Of a stretch of 64,000 nucleotides of DNA, positions 52,907 to 59,434 are shown one piece after another. The stretch comes from Clostridiales bacterium. GTDB lineage: Bacteria; Bacillota; Clostridia; Christensenellales; Aristaeellaceae. The notes under the pieces were generated by a model. It was not told where the DNA came from and ran no database searches. It saw only the letters and a program-made list of their open reading frames with translations. Each line of letters opens with the position of its first letter. Positions within the stretch are counted from its first letter, which is position 1. The DNA is taken from assembly GCA_012729115.1 (NCBI GenBank), contig JAAYDR010000001.1:1-64000 (forward strand). Direction: 5' to 3'. Made by a program: the position numbers and the translations under genes.

Positions 52907-54217
52907 ATGAGCCAGTTTCTTGCTCCCCTCAACTATGGCCGCGCCTTTGACGTGTTGCGCAAGCTGGATACCTATACAACCTACACCCCCCAAGGGGCCC
53001 AGGCGGTACACCATATGCTCAGGGAAAGCTATCCCCTGATCTTCCAGAAGACAGAGCAGAACGTGTTTGCCAACCATGCCCTGCTGCTGGAAATGCCGGG
53101 AGCTTCCGTAACCGATCCCCTGGTCTTTGTATCCCATCTGGACAGTCCTTCCGTGACCGGTTCCCCGGCTGAACCCCCTCTTCCGGAACCTGGCAAGCCC
53201 TTTGGCAAGCCTCGGGTCACCTCCCTCCAGCGGGCTCATGTCATCATGCTGTTGGAAGCCCTGGAAGCGCTTCTCTCTGAAGGATACCGTCCAGGAGGCG
53301 ACCTGATGCTGGCTCTGTCCATGGACGGGCTCAGCGGCGGGGAAGGGGCCAAAAGCATCGCAACACATCTGAAGGTCCGTAAGATCAGCCCCTGCTTTGT
53401 GCTGGATTTTGGCGGCTATGTTACCCACTCCGCCTTCTGCACCTACCTGCCCAAAAACGCCCCTCTGGCCTTTATCGGCATCTCTGAGAAAGGCATGCTC
53501 CAGGGGCAGGTGACCGCCGACAGCTCTTCCGCGAAGGCCAGGTCCCAGAACTCACTGACCCTCCTGCTGCGGGCCGGAGCCCGACTCAGCCGCTTTGGGC
53601 AGGTTCCCTCCCTGTGTAAAAGCAGCGAGGCCATGCTTCAGGCATTGGCGAAGAACGCCCCGCTTCTGCAGCGCTTGCTGGTGTCCAGGCCGAGGCTCAC
53701 CTTTCCCCTGCTGACCCTCCTTTGGCGCAAGCGGGCCATCATGAACCAGTTCTTTGTTTCCCAGCGAACCCTCACCGGGATCTCTACCAGCGGCTCCCTG
53801 CAGAACACCTCCGGGGAACATGTACCCGCGTCTGCTACCCTATCCTTCCGGCAGACCACGGTACCCGGCCGCAAACTTCAGCATTGGAAGCGGGTCCTGC
53901 GGCGGCGTATGGCAAATGAAAACCTGCGCATGAATATGGAGGTGGAGTTGGAGCACAGCGCCCGCAGCAGCACGGGAGGCGAAGCCTGGGATGCGCTGGA
54001 AACCGCGATCGAAATCCTCTTTGACCGGGTGGTCATCGCCCCATGTCTCTCCCCCTATGTGACCGATGGCCGCTTCTACACCGCACTGAGGGGCAATGTC
54101 TACCGCTTCTCTCCCTTCCTGCTCACTACCCAGGAAGCCTTAAGCGGAGAATGCGCGTTAACAGAGGGAGCCCTGCAAACCGCCGTGCAGTTCTTCCGCC
54201 AGATGCTCAGCGTATAG
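52907..54217 (+). CDS. M20-family peptidase homologue lacking most metal ligands
   Basis: This 436-residue protein aligns by eye along its whole length with M20 metallopeptidases. HLDS (H77, D79) sits where HxD is expected. The bridging-Asp region (canonical ALDDKG) is replaced by VTSLQRA (104-110). The catalytic DEE is replaced by DGL (D140-G141-L142) and the ligand Glu in DEGG by Phe (D167-F168-G-G). The C-terminal TDGRFYTAL matches TDSRxY, but the last His is not found. It is thus probably inactive as a peptidase. It lies directly before a large membrane protein. RBS is GGGAGG. Confidence 0.75.
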   Translation: MSQFLAPLNYGRAFDVLRKLDTYTTYTPQGAQAVHHMLRESYPLIFQKTEQNVFANHALLLEMPGASVTDPLVFVSHLDSPSVTGSPAEPPLPEPGKPFGKPRVTSLQRAHVIMLLEALEALLSEGYRPGGDLMLALSMDGLSGGEGAKSIATHLKVRKISPCFVLDFGGYVTHSAFCTYLPKNAPLAFIGISEKGMLQGQVTADSSSAKARSQNSLTLLLRAGARLSRFGQVPSLCKSSEAMLQALAKNAPLLQRLLVSRPRLTFPLLTLLWRKRAIMNQFFVSQRTLTGISTSGSLQNTSGEHVPASATLSFRQTTVPGRKLQHWKRVLRRRMANENLRMNMEVELEHSARSSTGGEAWDALETAIEILFDRVVIAPCLSPYVTDGRFYTALRGNVYRFSPFLLTTQEALSGECALTEGALQTAVQFFRQMLSV

Positions 54218-54228
54218 GAGGCCATCCC

Positions 54229-56247
54229 TTGCTTTCCATCCTTTACCTATCCTTCTTCCTGGCCTGCGGTCTGGTCATGGCCCATTTTCTCTTGCCCCGT
54301 CTGCGGCCTCTGCTCAGGGGATACGTGGGCCTGTCCCTGGGCGTGCTGCTGATGATGTGGCTGCCGGTGCTATTGGCCTATGCCATTTCTTTTACGCTCA
54401 CCGCCCACTTGGCAGCCGCCGGAGTCATGACCCTGCTGACCCTGCTGTGCTACTTCCTGCGGGACAAGCGGCCTGCCCTTCCTTTTGACAAAGCGGAGAA
54501 GAGCCTTCTGCTGACGCTCCTGATCCTGATTGTCCCCATGGCGCTGCTTTCGGGATATCTGCAGTATACCCACAGCCTCCGCCCCGCTGCCGACGGCTCC
54601 TATCATGTTGGACAGAGTACCTACGGCGACCTGTCCCTTCATCTGGCGGTGACCACCAGCATTGTCAATGCCCCCTTCCCGCTGCATAACAGCCTGATGC
54701 TGGGGGCCACCATGGCCTATCCCTATCTGTCCGATTCCTTTGCCGCCAGCATGTTGATGATGGGGATGAGCCTGCCTGTTGCCATGGCCTTTACCGGAAC
54801 CCTGATGATGGCCTTGGTCTACTCGGGCTATACCCTGCTTTGCGCCCAGCTTTGCCGAAGGAAGGGCGCCTTTGTTCTGGCAGTTTGCCTGTTGTTTTTC
54901 AACGGCGGGCTGGGCTTTTTCTATACCCTCAGCGGCAGGGTGGAAAGCGGAGTCCTGACCAATGTCCTTGATAACCTGAACGAGGTTCTCAGCGGCTACT
55001 ACAAGACCCCCACCAATCAGCCTGATCCCAACAACCTGCGCTGGTCCAACATCATCTGCGACATGCTGATCCCCCAGCGGGGCATTTTGGGAGGCTGGAC
55101 AATCCTCATGCCCTGCCTGAATCTGCTGGTGCCGCCTTTGGCCCGCCGGGAGAAACATGATGTCCGCGCGTTGGTCCTGCTGGGAATCATGGCCGGGGGG
55201 ATGCCCCTTTTGCATACCCATAGCTTCCTGGCCCTGGGACTTTCCAGCATCGGTTTTTGCGCTTATTCCCTTTGCACCGCGCCCAGGGGAACGCGTGGAG
55301 AGGCAATCCTGCCCTGGCTGCTGTACGGCGGTATCTCCCTTGTGCTGGCCCTTCCTCAGCTGATTGGATTTACCTTTGTACAGGCCACCGGAAGCGACCA
55401 TTTCCTGCGCTTTCAGTTCAACTGGTGCAACAACCGCGGGGGTCAGGGGCTGGTGGATCCCTATGTGTGGTTTTACATCAAAAACATCGGTCTGCCCTAC
55501 CTGCTGATTCTCCTGGCCCTTTGCCGCCGCAAGGACAAGACCGCGGAACCCAGCGAAAGCTCCCTCCGGCACAATGACGAAATTTTCCGGCATCGGCTTC
55601 TGGCGGCAGGTGCCTTTACAATCTATGTTGTAGCGGAATTGATCCTGTTCCAGCCCAATGAGTATGACAACAACAAGCTTTTCTATGTCTGGTTTCTGCT
55701 CTGTCTCCCCATGGCCGCGGATTACAGTCTGGAGCTCTTTGAGAAGCTGCGGGGAGTGGCGGGGCGACGGGCGATCGCAGCCCTGTTTCTGATCACCTGT
55801 TTCCTCTCCGCCGGGCTCACCGTAATCCGGGAATGTATCAGCGACATCCCGGCTTATGACAAGAAGGCCATTGCCACCGCTGATTTTGTGAAGGCATATA
55901 CCCCGGAGCATGCGATCTTTGTCACCGGCAACCAGCACCTGAACCCCATCAGTTCCCTGGCCGGACGCACCATCCTGTGTTCCGCCGATCTGTACCTGTA
56001 CTACCACGGCTTTGACACCCGGCAGCGCCGCGCGGAAATCGCCGCCTTCTATGCAGACCCTGCCAGCCATCTTGCTTTCCTCCGGCAGTACGGTGTACAA
56101 TACATCTACGTGTCCCCCTATGAGCGGAGCAACCCCTCCCTGTGGGTCAATGAAGCGGCCTTGGAAGCACTGTTTCCCTTGGCCTATGAAAGTGAGGACG
56201 GGAGCGAGCGGATTTTTTCCGTGCCCGATCCCCTGCCGGTTTCCTGA
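54229..56247 (+). CDS. Large polytopic membrane protein, GT-C glycosyltransferase-like
   Basis: This 672-residue protein has about twelve or more membrane segments and a C-terminal soluble region (about 570-672). An outer loop motif TYGDLSLHLAV (D134, H138) lies after early helices, like the catalytic Asp motif of GT-C enzymes; a lipid-linked sugar donor is plausible. I do not recognise a named family. The start is TTG 54229, seven bases after AGGAGG that overlaps the upstream stop. It is followed by a 71-residue protein and GtrA. Confidence 0.75.
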   Translation: MLSILYLSFFLACGLVMAHFLLPRLRPLLRGYVGLSLGVLLMMWLPVLLAYAISFTLTAHLAAAGVMTLLTLLCYFLRDKRPALPFDKAEKSLLLTLLILIVPMALLSGYLQYTHSLRPAADGSYHVGQSTYGDLSLHLAVTTSIVNAPFPLHNSLMLGATMAYPYLSDSFAASMLMMGMSLPVAMAFTGTLMMALVYSGYTLLCAQLCRRKGAFVLAVCLLFFNGGLGFFYTLSGRVESGVLTNVLDNLNEVLSGYYKTPTNQPDPNNLRWSNIICDMLIPQRGILGGWTILMPCLNLLVPPLARREKHDVRALVLLGIMAGGMPLLHTHSFLALGLSSIGFCAYSLCTAPRGTRGEAILPWLLYGGISLVLALPQLIGFTFVQATGSDHFLRFQFNWCNNRGGQGLVDPYVWFYIKNIGLPYLLILLALCRRKDKTAEPSESSLRHNDEIFRHRLLAAGAFTIYVVAELILFQPNEYDNNKLFYVWFLLCLPMAADYSLELFEKLRGVAGRRAIAALFLITCFLSAGLTVIRECISDIPAYDKKAIATADFVKAYTPEHAIFVTGNQHLNPISSLAGRTILCSADLYLYYHGFDTRQRRAEIAAFYADPASHLAFLRQYGVQYIYVSPYERSNPSLWVNEAALEALFPLAYESEDGSERIFSVPDPLPVS

Positions 56248-56260
56248 AGGAGAAATGGCC

Positions 56261-56476
56261 ATGGAGCGGTTTTTACAGTACTCCCTCCAGCATGGGCGTC
56301 CCATACGGGGAGTGCTTATGATAAACGGCGTCCTTGTACAGAAAACCTTCACCGTACTTAACTATTCCTGCGAGTGTGTCTCCGTCCTTTTGGGGTCCAA
56401 GGGTACGCCCCTTCTTTTGCCCCTTTCCGATATATTAAGCTGTGATTACGCCCGGGGCGATCACGGCGAAACCTGA
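56261..56476 (+). CDS. Small hypothetical protein (71 residues)
   Basis: It starts at ATG 56261 with AAGGAG at eight bases; the ATG at 56255 is too close. The sequence MERFLQYSLQHGRPIRGVLM leads into a short beta-rich stretch (KTFTVLNYSCECVSVLLGSK), with no signal peptide. It resembles small SH3-like or WYL-fold-like fragments but I do not recognise it. It lies between the membrane protein and GtrA, likely in one operon. Confidence 0.65.
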   Translation: MERFLQYSLQHGRPIRGVLMINGVLVQKTFTVLNYSCECVSVLLGSKGTPLLLPLSDILSCDYARGDHGET

Positions 56477-56488
56477 GGAGTGTTTCGG

Positions 56489-57004
56489 ATGATCCGCAAG
56501 ATCAGAGACTATCTGGATTCTCATCCCAAGGAGTATGAGCTTGTCCGCTATGTGATCGCGGGGGGCTTGACTACCTTGCTCAGCCTGGCGGTTTTCAGCC
56601 TGTTTTGCATCGCTGTCTCAGTGGATCATACCGTGGACGGCGCCACCGATCTTCAGGCCAATATAGGCCAGATCCTCTCCTGGATCATCGCGGTGCTGTT
56701 TGCCTTTTGGATCAACCGCCGCATGGTCTTTCAGGTGCAGGGAGGCAGCCGGGGAGGCATACTCAAGGAATTGACGCAGTTTGTGCTCAGCCGCCTGGTC
56801 AGCGGGGTGGTCTTTGAGCTGGGCCTGTTTAACCTGCTGCTGGCCATGGATATAAGCAACACGGTCAGCAAGGTCATCGTTCTGGTTTTTGTGATGGTGT
56901 TCAACTATGTGGTGAGCAAGTTTTGGATTTTTTCCAAGAAAAAGCGGCAAGCAGCAGAAATGCCCCCAGAGAAAGCACCCCAGCCCAAGGAACCCCGGGA
57001 ATGA
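56489..57004 (+). CDS. GtrA-family membrane protein
   Basis: This 171-residue protein has four membrane helices and GtrA-like motifs (YVIAGGLTTLLSLAVF, FWINRRMVFQ). GtrA proteins help flip polyprenyl-linked glucose or other sugars across the membrane. Its presence supports a cell-surface glycosylation role for the preceding membrane protein. ATG 56489 follows GAGGAG. The last 104 bases overlap the end of the convergent YlbJ-like gene. Confidence 0.9.
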   Translation: MIRKIRDYLDSHPKEYELVRYVIAGGLTTLLSLAVFSLFCIAVSVDHTVDGATDLQANIGQILSWIIAVLFAFWINRRMVFQVQGGSRGGILKELTQFVLSRLVSGVVFELGLFNLLLAMDISNTVSKVIVLVFVMVFNYVVSKFWIFSKKKRQAAEMPPEKAPQPKEPRE

Positions 57005-58058
57005 GGTCTGAAGAACCTCCTGCAGGCCCAAAACCCGCTTCCAGTGCCGGGGAAGAGGCCAACTGAGGCCAGATCTGCAAAACAGCCCAACTGATCCCAA
57101 AGCTCAATGCCCCGTGGACAGCCCGGTAGAGGAGCAGTGCCGCGGGGCGTATGCTTTGCCCCGTATAAGCCAGGTTTTGGAGCCAAATGGACAGTCCTCC
57201 AAAACTGCAGGCCGCGCATAGCAGCGGATATAGAATATGGCTTGGGACACAACCCTTTTGGCCCGCCTCCAGCAAGGCGTAAGCCCCGCCGCCGATCTCC
57301 AGCAGGGCATGGAGAAAAGCCATGGGCAGCTCACCGCCACCCTTGCCGACGAACCGCAGCTGCAGCAACAGTCCCCGCAGCACCGCTGCCGCCACCGCAA
57401 AGAGCATCATGGCCCCGCAGACCATAAGCAACGCCTGCGTCCCGGAAGCGATCGCCTGCGGAAGTGCTCTCCAAAGGGAAATGGGCCGGTGGCCAGCGGT
57501 CTTTTCTCCGGGGCAGCCCTTTCTTGCCTGTATGGGAGGTTGCATAGCAATCACAGGGCTGGGACAGTCTAATGGAAAAGGAGGCGCTGCATGCCTGCTC
57601 TGTCTCCTGTTCCCAGAATGCTTTTCCACGCCCCTGGCCACACTCCCCGAAGCCAGAGCAGTCAGCCAATGGATTGCCAGCAAAATGGCCATCATTTCCT
57701 TGCTTCCCGTCCAGCCCGCCAGGGTACCCAGAAAAAACAAAGGACTCATGACTCCGGCGGTGACAAACAATGGAGCTGTTGAACCCTCCTGGACTGCTGC
57801 CCGTCTGGCACCTGCCGGAGAGCCCGCCGCAAAGGCAAACAGCACCACCTCCACATTCTCCCGCCAGCCTCTTTTCCCCACAGCATTCCTCCCCAGGGGC
57901 AGCCCGGCCAATACCATCATGGGAAACAGGCCGGGCATCACGCCGGAGGCAAACACGGCCGCTGTCTCCCTGGCCGCTGCCAGGCATTCCTGAGAAAACC
58001 ACAGCAGCAATCCCACTGAAACTGCAAGACCCCATCCCGACAAGGCCACGCCCCTCAT
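56901..58058 (-). CDS. YlbJ-like sporulation integral membrane protein
   Basis: This 385-residue protein has about eight to ten membrane segments. Motifs such as FASGVMPGLFPMMVLAGLPL and GSPAGARRAAVQEG match YlbJ, a nucleoside-recognition (Gate-domain) protein made in the mother cell under sigma-E. It could carry a small solute during spore formation. GGGGAGGA precedes ATG 58058. Its C-terminal coding region overlaps 104 bp of gtrA on the opposite strand. Confidence 0.75.
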   Translation of the reverse strand: MRGVALSGWGLAVSVGLLLWFSQECLAAARETAAVFASGVMPGLFPMMVLAGLPLGRNAVGKRGWRENVEVVLFAFAAGSPAGARRAAVQEGSTAPLFVTAGVMSPLFFLGTLAGWTGSKEMMAILLAIHWLTALASGSVARGVEKHSGNRRQSRHAAPPFPLDCPSPVIAMQPPIQARKGCPGEKTAGHRPISLWRALPQAIASGTQALLMVCGAMMLFAVAAAVLRGLLLQLRFVGKGGGELPMAFLHALLEIGGGAYALLEAGQKGCVPSHILYPLLCAACSFGGLSIWLQNLAYTGQSIRPAALLLYRAVHGALSFGISWAVLQIWPQLASSPALEAGFGPAGGSSDLIPGVPWAGVLSLGAFLLLAAFSWKKSKTCSPHS

Positions 58059-58219
58059 CTGCCATCCTCCCCACCCATGGTCAGGAAAACCTGTACGTTT
58101 TTGACAAACTTCCCTAAAATCTGCGCTTTCACCCGTTTCGCTCTTCTCAGAAAGTGTTTTTTACGCTATACTGAACGTGTAACATTGGGCAAGCACCATG
58201 GTGACAAAGGAGCATGAAT

Positions 58220-59434
58220 GTGACGGATTTTGTAAGCAACTGGAATTCGGATCTATTGACGGTGCCCTTGGCGCCCCTTGGGCTGATCGCCATGGCCGGC
58301 TGTGAAGAACTGGGCCAAAAAATCAACACCTGGCTGTTGAAATGGCACGAACAGCAGGAGGCCCTGGATGAGACTCCTCTTTTTACCTTGATGGGGCACA
58401 ATCGGCATGACTTTCTTATAGAGGCCGACTGTCCCCGCTTTGGCACCGGTGAGGCCAAGGGCATGCTCCACAGCAGTGTACGCGGCTACGATATCTATAT
58501 TCTCACGGACATAGGCGCATACGACGTCACCTATAAAATGTATGGCAAGGAAGTACCCATGTCCCCGGACGATCACTACCAGGACCTCAAGCGGGTTATA
58601 TCGGCCATCGGAGGGCGTGCCAAGCGGGTGAATGTCATCATGCCTCTGCTTTACGAGGGGCGGCAGCACAAGCGCTCCACAAGGGAAAGCCTGGACTGTG
58701 CCCTGGCGCTCCAGGAACTGCAGAACATGGGCGTTTCCAACATCATTACCTTTGATGCACACGACCCCCGGGTTCAAAACGCCATCCCCCTGATCGGCTT
58801 TGACAGCGTCAAGCCCTCCTATCAAATATTGAAGGCCCTCTTCCGTGAGGAGCCGGCATTGTACCTGGACAAGGAACACATGATGATCGTCAGCCCCGAC
58901 GAAGGGGCCATTGACCGCAATATCTTTTACAGCTCCGTGCTGGGTCTGAACATGGGCATGTTCTACAAGCGCCGGGATTACACCCGTGTGGAAAATGGCC
59001 GGAATCCCATTGTTGCCCATGAGTACCTGGGCGAGAGCGTGGAAGGCAAGGACATTTTTGTCTCCGACGACATCCTGGCCTCGGGGGAAAGCATGCTGGA
59101 TCTGGCCCGGGAGCTGAAAAAGCGCAATGCAGCGCGCATTTTTGCCAGCGCAACCTTCGCGCTGTTTACCAGCGGACTGGAACCCTTCCACAAAGCCTAC
59201 GCGGACGGCATCATCTCCCGGATTATCTCCACCAACCTCACCTACCGCACCCCGGAGCTGAAGACTGCCCCCTGGTTTATTGAAGCGGACATGAGCAAGT
59301 ATATCTCCTACATCGTCGCCTCCCTGAACCATGACCGGAGCCTCAGCAAATTGCTCAACCCCTATGATCGCATCAGGAGTCTGGTATCCTGCTACAACCA
59401 AAGGCAGGCGGAGGCAGGCATCCGGTTGGTGTGA
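58220..59434 (+). CDS. Ribose-phosphate pyrophosphokinase, long form
   Basis: This 404-residue protein has the PRPP synthetase fold but is about 90 residues longer than housekeeping Prs. Motifs are altered: TFDAHDPRVQN in place of the ribose-phosphate site, and VSDDILASGESML as the PRPP loop, where Prs has DDMIDTGGT. Catalytic DD is kept. It makes PRPP from ribose 5-phosphate and ATP, or has become a related enzyme. GTG 58220 has AGGAG at seven bases; ATG 58214 is only one base from it and therefore less likely. Confidence 0.82.
   Translation: MTDFVSNWNSDLLTVPLAPLGLIAMAGCEELGQKINTWLLKWHEQQEALDETPLFTLMGHNRHDFLIEADCPRFGTGEAKGMLHSSVRGYDIYILTDIGAYDVTYKMYGKEVPMSPDDHYQDLKRVISAIGGRAKRVNVIMPLLYEGRQHKRSTRESLDCALALQELQNMGVSNIITFDAHDPRVQNAIPLIGFDSVKPSYQILKALFREEPALYLDKEHMMIVSPDEGAIDRNIFYSSVLGLNMGMFYKRRDYTRVENGRNPIVAHEYLGESVEGKDIFVSDDILASGESMLDLARELKKRNAARIFASATFALFTSGLEPFHKAYADGIISRIISTNLTYRTPELKTAPWFIEADMSKYISYIVASLNHDRSLSKLLNPYDRIRSLVSCYNQRQAEAGIRLV

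Follow-up and report, generated by a model that had tools for sequence, protein, structure and literature searches.

Teichoic acids and cell wall polysaccharides receive sugars from multi-component transmembrane glycosylation systems, whose parts, as set out in the relevant sections of a review (PMC8035078), are a GT-A enzyme, a GtrA-type flippase and a GT-C glycosyltransferase. The same sections state that more than three proteins can take part, and speculate on extra acceptor-binding partners (PMC8035078). The operon described here lies in a 64,000-nucleotide stretch of DNA from a Clostridiales bacterium (the window; G000:C95, in a genome of 3.15 Mb on 124 contigs that is 95.9% complete). 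It consists of four co-directional genes on the + strand, which encode in order a pseudo-M20 protein (M20x), a membrane protein of predicted GT-C fold (GTC), a conserved 71-residue protein (p71) and a GtrA family protein. Fold and gene context support well that this is a glycosylation operon, which would work with a GT2 glycosyltransferase encoded elsewhere in the genome, and it probably attaches sugars to the cell exterior in some uncultured Firmicutes. M20x seems to be a genuine accessory component, maintained by selection, of this known kind of sugar-transfer machine. As a conserved pseudoenzyme heading the operon it is a tangible candidate for the role of accessory subunit, albeit one on the cytosolic side.

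Nicastrin is a dead, M28-like relative of clan MH aminopeptidases, eukaryotic and extracytoplasmic, that serves as partner of a membrane protease. The role considered here for M20x is similar in that a dead clan MH relative would partner a membrane enzyme; M20x itself has no hydrophobic segment. A cytosolic M20 protein that offers a precedent for a proposed regulatory role at the envelope is Staphylococcus aureus PepV, a SecA ligand for which a role in surface display has been proposed (PMC12004944, in the parts available). PepV differs from M20x in being an active Mn-dependent dipeptidase, and no link to GT-C or GtrA is seen in those parts of the paper (PMC12004944). Among open-licence papers in PubMed Central, none was found that joins an M20 peptidase pseudoenzyme with a glycosyltransferase and none on nicastrin as an inactive aminopeptidase pseudoenzyme; the sole paper there combining GtrA, an M20 peptidase and a glycosyltransferase concerns the positioning of peripheral membrane proteins.

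The M20-like protein, its metal site and its distribution

The metal ligands and general base of M20 enzymes are a His, a bridging Asp, a Glu-Glu pair, an Asp or Glu, and a last His. M20x (52907..54217, +; 436 residues) scores 25.1 bits against Pfam PF01546, barely above the cut-off of 24.6, and the same family is matched by 14 of the 19 members of the M20x alignment (E 0.001). A search of PDB sequences with the M20x profile at E 0.001 gave no match, and it was fold comparison alone that worked. The AlphaFold model (predicted local distance difference test, pLDDT, 83.5; predicted template modelling score, pTM, 0.83) was aligned by VIA to DapE (8f8o_B) with Z 28.9 and 3.2 Å over 340 residues and to carboxypeptidase CPG2 (1cg2_A) with Z 24.9 and 4.7 Å over 344 residues; for the best 47 entries listed Z runs from 28.9 to 22.0. 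By this model M20x has an M20 fold with catalytic and lid domains. The predicted fold is shared with DapE, ArgE and CPG2 over the whole length and the Asp of the HxD motif is kept, whereas the bridging Asp, the Glu-Glu pair, the Glu ligand and the last His have been lost.

The counts for these residues come from a table of 22 M20x sequences, that of the window included, in which the near-identical L066 and L068 are both counted and from which L032 and L035-L038 were excluded as second copies of genomes already present. The catalytic Glu-Glu pair has become Gly-Leu, the bridging Asp column is a gap, and the Glu ligand is replaced by Phe, Tyr or His, each in 22/22. His is present in none of 21 sequences at the column of the last His (one sequence ends earlier), and a three-residue shift of the last loop puts 'HG' there in two of the 21 (L070, L075). 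In the HxD motif the Asp is invariant (22/22) and the metal His is kept in 19, with Arg in the other three; this first His is all that remains of the active-enzyme residue set. All of these residues are intact in 13 of 13 inspected M20 relatives, three of them intermediates and ten paralogue-type, and an intact paralogue-type protein (G000:C39) is encoded in the same genome as the window. The residue table and the fold together confirm what the preliminary description had claimed for the first gene, an M20-like protein without bridging Asp, Glu-Glu pair, Glu ligand and last His. By its residues M20x is an inactive M20 homologue with a dead metal site.

Hydropathy gives no membrane-type segment in M20x (the maximum 19-residue value in the first 60 residues is 0.06). 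The protein is therefore expected in the cytosol, and a role as an extracellular partner that binds the acceptor is unlikely.

In a tree of 21 dead sequences, with the near-copy L068 omitted and the paralogue group as outgroup, the dead M20x sequences form a single clade with support 100/100. Nearest to it are three intact intermediates (G030, G056 and G011; own support 94/88). A long stem leads to the dead clade, and the tree program gives a long-branch warning. The neighbourhood of the three intermediates carries no information on function; a divergent gene beside them resembles one for phosphofructokinase in sequence. The M20x frame is open in all 22 sequences, two of which (L075, L039) are cut by contig ends. 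The ratio of nonsynonymous to synonymous change (dN/dS) for M20x is 0.071, 0.187 and 0.237 in the three pairs closest by synonymous difference (dS) in the GT-C gene, near the values of 0.105, 0.146 and 0.233 for GTC itself in those pairs; the top M20x value among the 14 pairs listed is 0.543, at dS 0.82. On the alignments available the loss of the catalytic residues is old, fixed and under selection. Decay of M20x, whether recent or to a simple pseudogene, is excluded by the open frames together with low dN/dS in close pairs.

Dead M20x is present in 16 of the 17 genomes of the window's genus. A 60-genome sample of the bacterial family has it in five, three of them from that genus and the others being both sampled genomes of a second genus, g14; other matches in this sample, and in one of 200 genomes from the order, score far lower. 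Three more dead orthologs (L033, L034, L039) are on contigs of metagenome-assembled genomes (MAGs) without established genus. Among the sampled genomes dead M20x is limited to the two genera and these MAG contigs.

Where it occurs, its position is constant. Of the 22 genomes 20 could be tested, and in every one of these the conserved gene that comes next is GTC, at a distance of 11 to 325 bp; the complete four-gene order is present in all 18 genomes whose contigs reach far enough, which exceeds chance. These and the other neighbourhood counts rest on a profile search of six-frame translations; neighbourhood open reading frames came from custom scripts, of which a codon-based version missed most L173 genes and some short genes. 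The two genomes outside the adjacency count are L039, which ends inside M20x, and L072, which runs on for only 327 bp beyond M20x, a stretch without a GT-C match. In the window the gaps are 11 bp (M20x to GTC), 13 bp (GTC to p71) and 12 bp (p71 to GtrA; 3 bp if GtrA starts at GTG 56480), the order and spacing that had been reported before, and the neighbourhood survey then proposed has found the order to be conserved. The M20x-GTC gap is about 144 to 325 bp in L069, L070, L081 and L082. The stretch L072:1-327 has apparent long inverted repeats.

The predicted transferase, the presumed flippase and their companions

GTC (54229..56247, +; 672 residues, TTG start) is recognised by fold. A search of PDB sequences with its profile at E 1 found no match and, as for M20x, only fold comparison worked. 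With the AlphaFold model (pLDDT 77.9, pTM 0.83), Foldseek gave E values down to 7.3e-9, to DPY19, and VIA gave Z 18.4 to yeast OST (8age_A) and PMT (6p25_B) and 14.9 to ArnT; the best structural matches are DPY19, OST STT3, PMT, AglB, AftA and ArnT. A simple hydropathy scan finds ten hydrophobic segments. By predicted fold GTC is a GT-C glycosyltransferase, which bears out the earlier designation of it as a GT-C-like membrane protein. A motif STYGDLSLH, with Asp134, is invariant in 17/17 GTC members; a strict DxD motif is absent at this site. Asp134 would be catalytic and in an extracytoplasmic loop.

None of the 17 members matches Pfam YfhO or PMT_2 at E 0.01. Weak Pfam matches, in one member each, are to MFS_1, Hemotin and DUF6541; no Pfam glycosyltransferase family fits GTC, and NCBIfam gives one weak domain match. 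Yet of 150 genomes sampled from the bacterial family 140 have the protein, mostly as one match per genome, and the two facts together make it a candidate for a new, unnamed GT-C family. In a sample of the class it is found in 21 of 291 genomes, the window's own included. Three g14 relatives are longer, at 852 to 923 residues, mainly by one inserted stretch.

p71 (56261..56476, +) has no hydrophobic segment and a conserved end, DYxRGDxGE. Searches of Pfam, NCBIfam, PHROGs and PDB sequences gave no clear family, the best PDB match (E 0.096) being taken as chance. In 18/18 loci of the two genera its gene comes directly after GTC, which it overlaps by 4 bp in the majority, and it follows GTC in 30 of 58 loci of other genera; p71 is found in 81 of the 150 family genomes. 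In some genomes (e.g. G135, G006, G054 and G085) it is located elsewhere.

The last gene product (56489..57004, +) matches PF04138 with 66.6 bits (E 2.9e-18) and has four hydrophobic segments, so the family to which it had been assigned stands. Translation probably starts at ATG 56489, before which a GAGGAG is better spaced than it is for the alternative GTG 56480. Its family makes GtrA the presumed flippase for a lipid-linked sugar. The arrangement GTC-p71-GtrA is not confined to genera g1 and g14: among the 58 loci from other genera 11 have it as well, representing 8 of the 39 genera, so that GtrA follows in ten genera altogether.

The third component is a GT2 of 307 residues encoded in the window's own genome at G000:C3:12261-13181, with a match to PF00535 and two C-terminal hydrophobic segments. 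It is 79% identical to the GT2 that is divergently encoded beside M20x in L034, L081 and L082, and an ortholog at E 1e-100 is present in 13 of the 17 genomes of the genus. The own-genome GT2 would serve this operon. In two loci of another genus, g7 (L167, L238), a GT2 gene is upstream of GTC and non-adjacent.

A GT-C-fold protein, GtrA and a membrane-linked GT2, three features of membership in a multi-component transmembrane glycosylation system, are all found. The likeness to CsbB-GtcA-YfhO of B. subtilis, as that system appears in the sections of the review drawn on here, is that a GT2 with two C-terminal hydrophobic segments, a GtrA protein and a GT-C protein are all encoded (PMC8035078). 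As in the multi-component systems covered there, GT-C and GtrA share one operon, and the structural matches of GTC include transferase kinds that are reviewed, namely STT3, AglB, ArnT, AftD and PglB (PMC8035078). The locus differs from CsbB-GtcA-YfhO in that GTC is without a YfhO or PMT_2 match, the GT2 is outside the window's operon, and a pseudo-M20 protein and a 71-residue protein are added.

Possible roles of M20x

In the mechanism proposed, GT2 would charge undecaprenyl phosphate with a sugar, GtrA would flip the charged lipid carrier, and GTC would transfer the sugar, on the outer side, to an acceptor in the envelope. M20x, cytosolic, with metal catalysis lost and the catalytic-domain fold retained, would act without catalysis, as a regulator binding a small molecule or peptide, as a sensor, or as a scaffold, co-produced with the transferase. 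This proposal, taken whole, is given an even chance. Direct contact of M20x with the glycosylation machinery, and what its ligand might be, are matters of guesswork. That an M20 fold was recruited, stripped of catalysis and is now a dedicated cytosolic regulatory or sensing subunit of the GT-C/GtrA machine, with p71 as partner, is put forward tentatively and is rather doubtful.

Several observations weigh against the proposal. One genome of the window's genus, G066, has GTC-p71-GtrA and no M20x; there are 137 bp between a PgsA-like gene and GTC, with no M20x remnant detectable by eye. In quick trees the end branch of its GTC is not long (0.042, versus 0.066 in the nearest relative, L077). Its p71 branch has roughly double the length of the one in L077 (0.092 versus 0.044), and those of its GtrA and PRPP (phosphoribosyl pyrophosphate) synthase are not notably long. 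From its absence in G066, M20x is not strictly needed for GTC to persist. Elsewhere, in the 58 loci from 39 other genera, no M20 gene was found just upstream of GTC, although the available space exceeds 900 bp in 52 of these loci. The association with GT2 is also incomplete. A GT2 gene is beside the operon in three of six g14 or g14-like loci and, within available sequence, not in L031, L033 or L039, and it is there in 0/17 loci of the window's genus, the window included. No GT2 ortholog was found at E 1e-100 in G057, G066, G013 and G068, of which three have M20x.

Sequence conservation is a further point on that side. There are 104 invariant positions among 19 M20x sequences, and conservation is 0.77 and 0.80 in the catalytic domain versus 0.62 in the lid. 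When the dead-site motifs are shifted circularly along the full protein, their observed mean conservation is attained in 12 of 435 shifts (20 and 16 of 435 with narrower and wider motif windows). This signal is mostly due to the variable lid domain and is not taken as support: with shifts confined to the catalytic domain, the mean is attained in 58 of 277, so that the motifs are not clearly above the rest and ligand binding in the old cleft gains nothing from the test. The preliminary description had envisaged an envelope glycosylation operon with a pseudo-peptidase as partner. The glycosylation operon and lipid-linked sugar transfer, the latter by family, are supported; the partner role is conjectural, and G066 and the 58 loci speak against a strict need for M20x.

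An alternative, somewhat unlikely, is that M20x is only a passenger of the operon: its function in the cytosol would have nothing to do with GTC, and descent and coupled translation would keep the two genes side by side. It would fit the presence of M20x in only two genera among the sampled genomes and its absence from one species without visible effect on GTC, and in the wider family other genes precede GTC, such as the M42 triplet considered below. Shine-Dalgarno-like sequences are present before the operon's starts, and that of GTC, which in the window overlaps the M20x stop codon, can alone hold the two genes together. Less easily accommodated is that the adjacency of M20x and GTC is kept in 20/20 in spite of divergence that leaves the proteins 50-60% identical to those of the window, and that genes further upstream differ between genomes.

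Unlikely, too, and a little more so, is that M20x is a redesigned enzyme in which a new one-metal or metal-free site catalyses a step on a sugar or acyl substrate in the cytosol. A rebuilt site could be composed of His77, Asp79, Asp140, Asp167, Asp387 and the newly invariant Cys416. The four Asp residues are invariant in 22/22 M20x sequences, but intact relatives conserve Asp79, Asp167 and Asp387 just as well, and Asp140 almost as well (9/13), and they may accordingly be structural; His77 is Arg in 3/22. Cys416 is the sole new invariant candidate ligand near the old site: it is present in 21/21 M20x sequences where the 13 intact relatives have Arg, Ser, Asn or Gly, and in the alignment it is next to the position of the lost His. 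Cys163, too, is invariant (22/22) and rare in intact relatives (1/13), but it precedes the old Glu ligand by five residues on the same strand and is probably far from the site.

There remains a pentofuranose system, in which PRPP synthase would feed a polyprenyl phosphoribose pathway and GTC would add ribose-derived sugars. The polyprenyl phosphoribose synthase of such systems is expected to be UbiA-like. PRPP-fed systems of three components do exist, with a flippase of MATE type (PMC11127046, in the parts available), and a PRPP synthase gene (58214-59434 in the window) comes after the operon wherever a locus of the two genera extends far enough downstream. The reading is very improbable all the same, with no PF01040 (UbiA) match in the window's own genome where 14/14 control genomes match (a non-UbiA synthase is possible), a flippase that is GtrA and not of the MATE type in those parts of the paper (PMC11127046), and a GT2 beside the operon in three loci.

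M42 peptidases before GTC and the flanking genes

The place taken by M20x has other occupants. In 16 of the 58 loci from other genera (13 of 39 genera) M42 peptidase genes, three in tandem in most, are directly upstream of GTC (L161, L163-L166, L170, L172, L213, L217-L220, L222, L226, L231 and L232); in none of the 16 does GtrA follow p71. M42 and M20 belong to the same peptidase clan, MH. Dead M42 proteins beside GTC were considered and rejected, as both His, the Asp and the Glu pair are kept in 44 of 45 copies tested; a neighbouring Asp varies in four of the 45. The sole exception is the middle copy of L164, where a Glu of the pair is Lys. Judged by these residues, the place before GTC is held by a dead M20 protein in one group and by live M42 relatives in another. 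If M20x is the dedicated regulatory or sensing subunit put forward above, the clan MH peptidase fold would have been tied to this transferase twice, as the M42 placement would hint; the M42-GTC association may be an inherited neighbourhood only. In L172 the M42 copy adjoining GTC is split into two frames.

On its upstream side the window's operon is flanked by an auxin-efflux-carrier-like gene on the opposite strand. Downstream is a gene, also on the opposite strand, for a YlbJ-like membrane protein (56901-58058, −; NCBIfam match), and then that for PRPP synthase, which is long (406 residues) and of the PRK06827 type. Some neighbourhood genes are, to judge by their sequences, presumably those for RapZ, WhiA and RarA. 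The YlbJ-like gene is convergent with GtrA and overlaps its 3′ end by about 100 bp; convergent neighbours of this kind are present in most loci of the window's genus.

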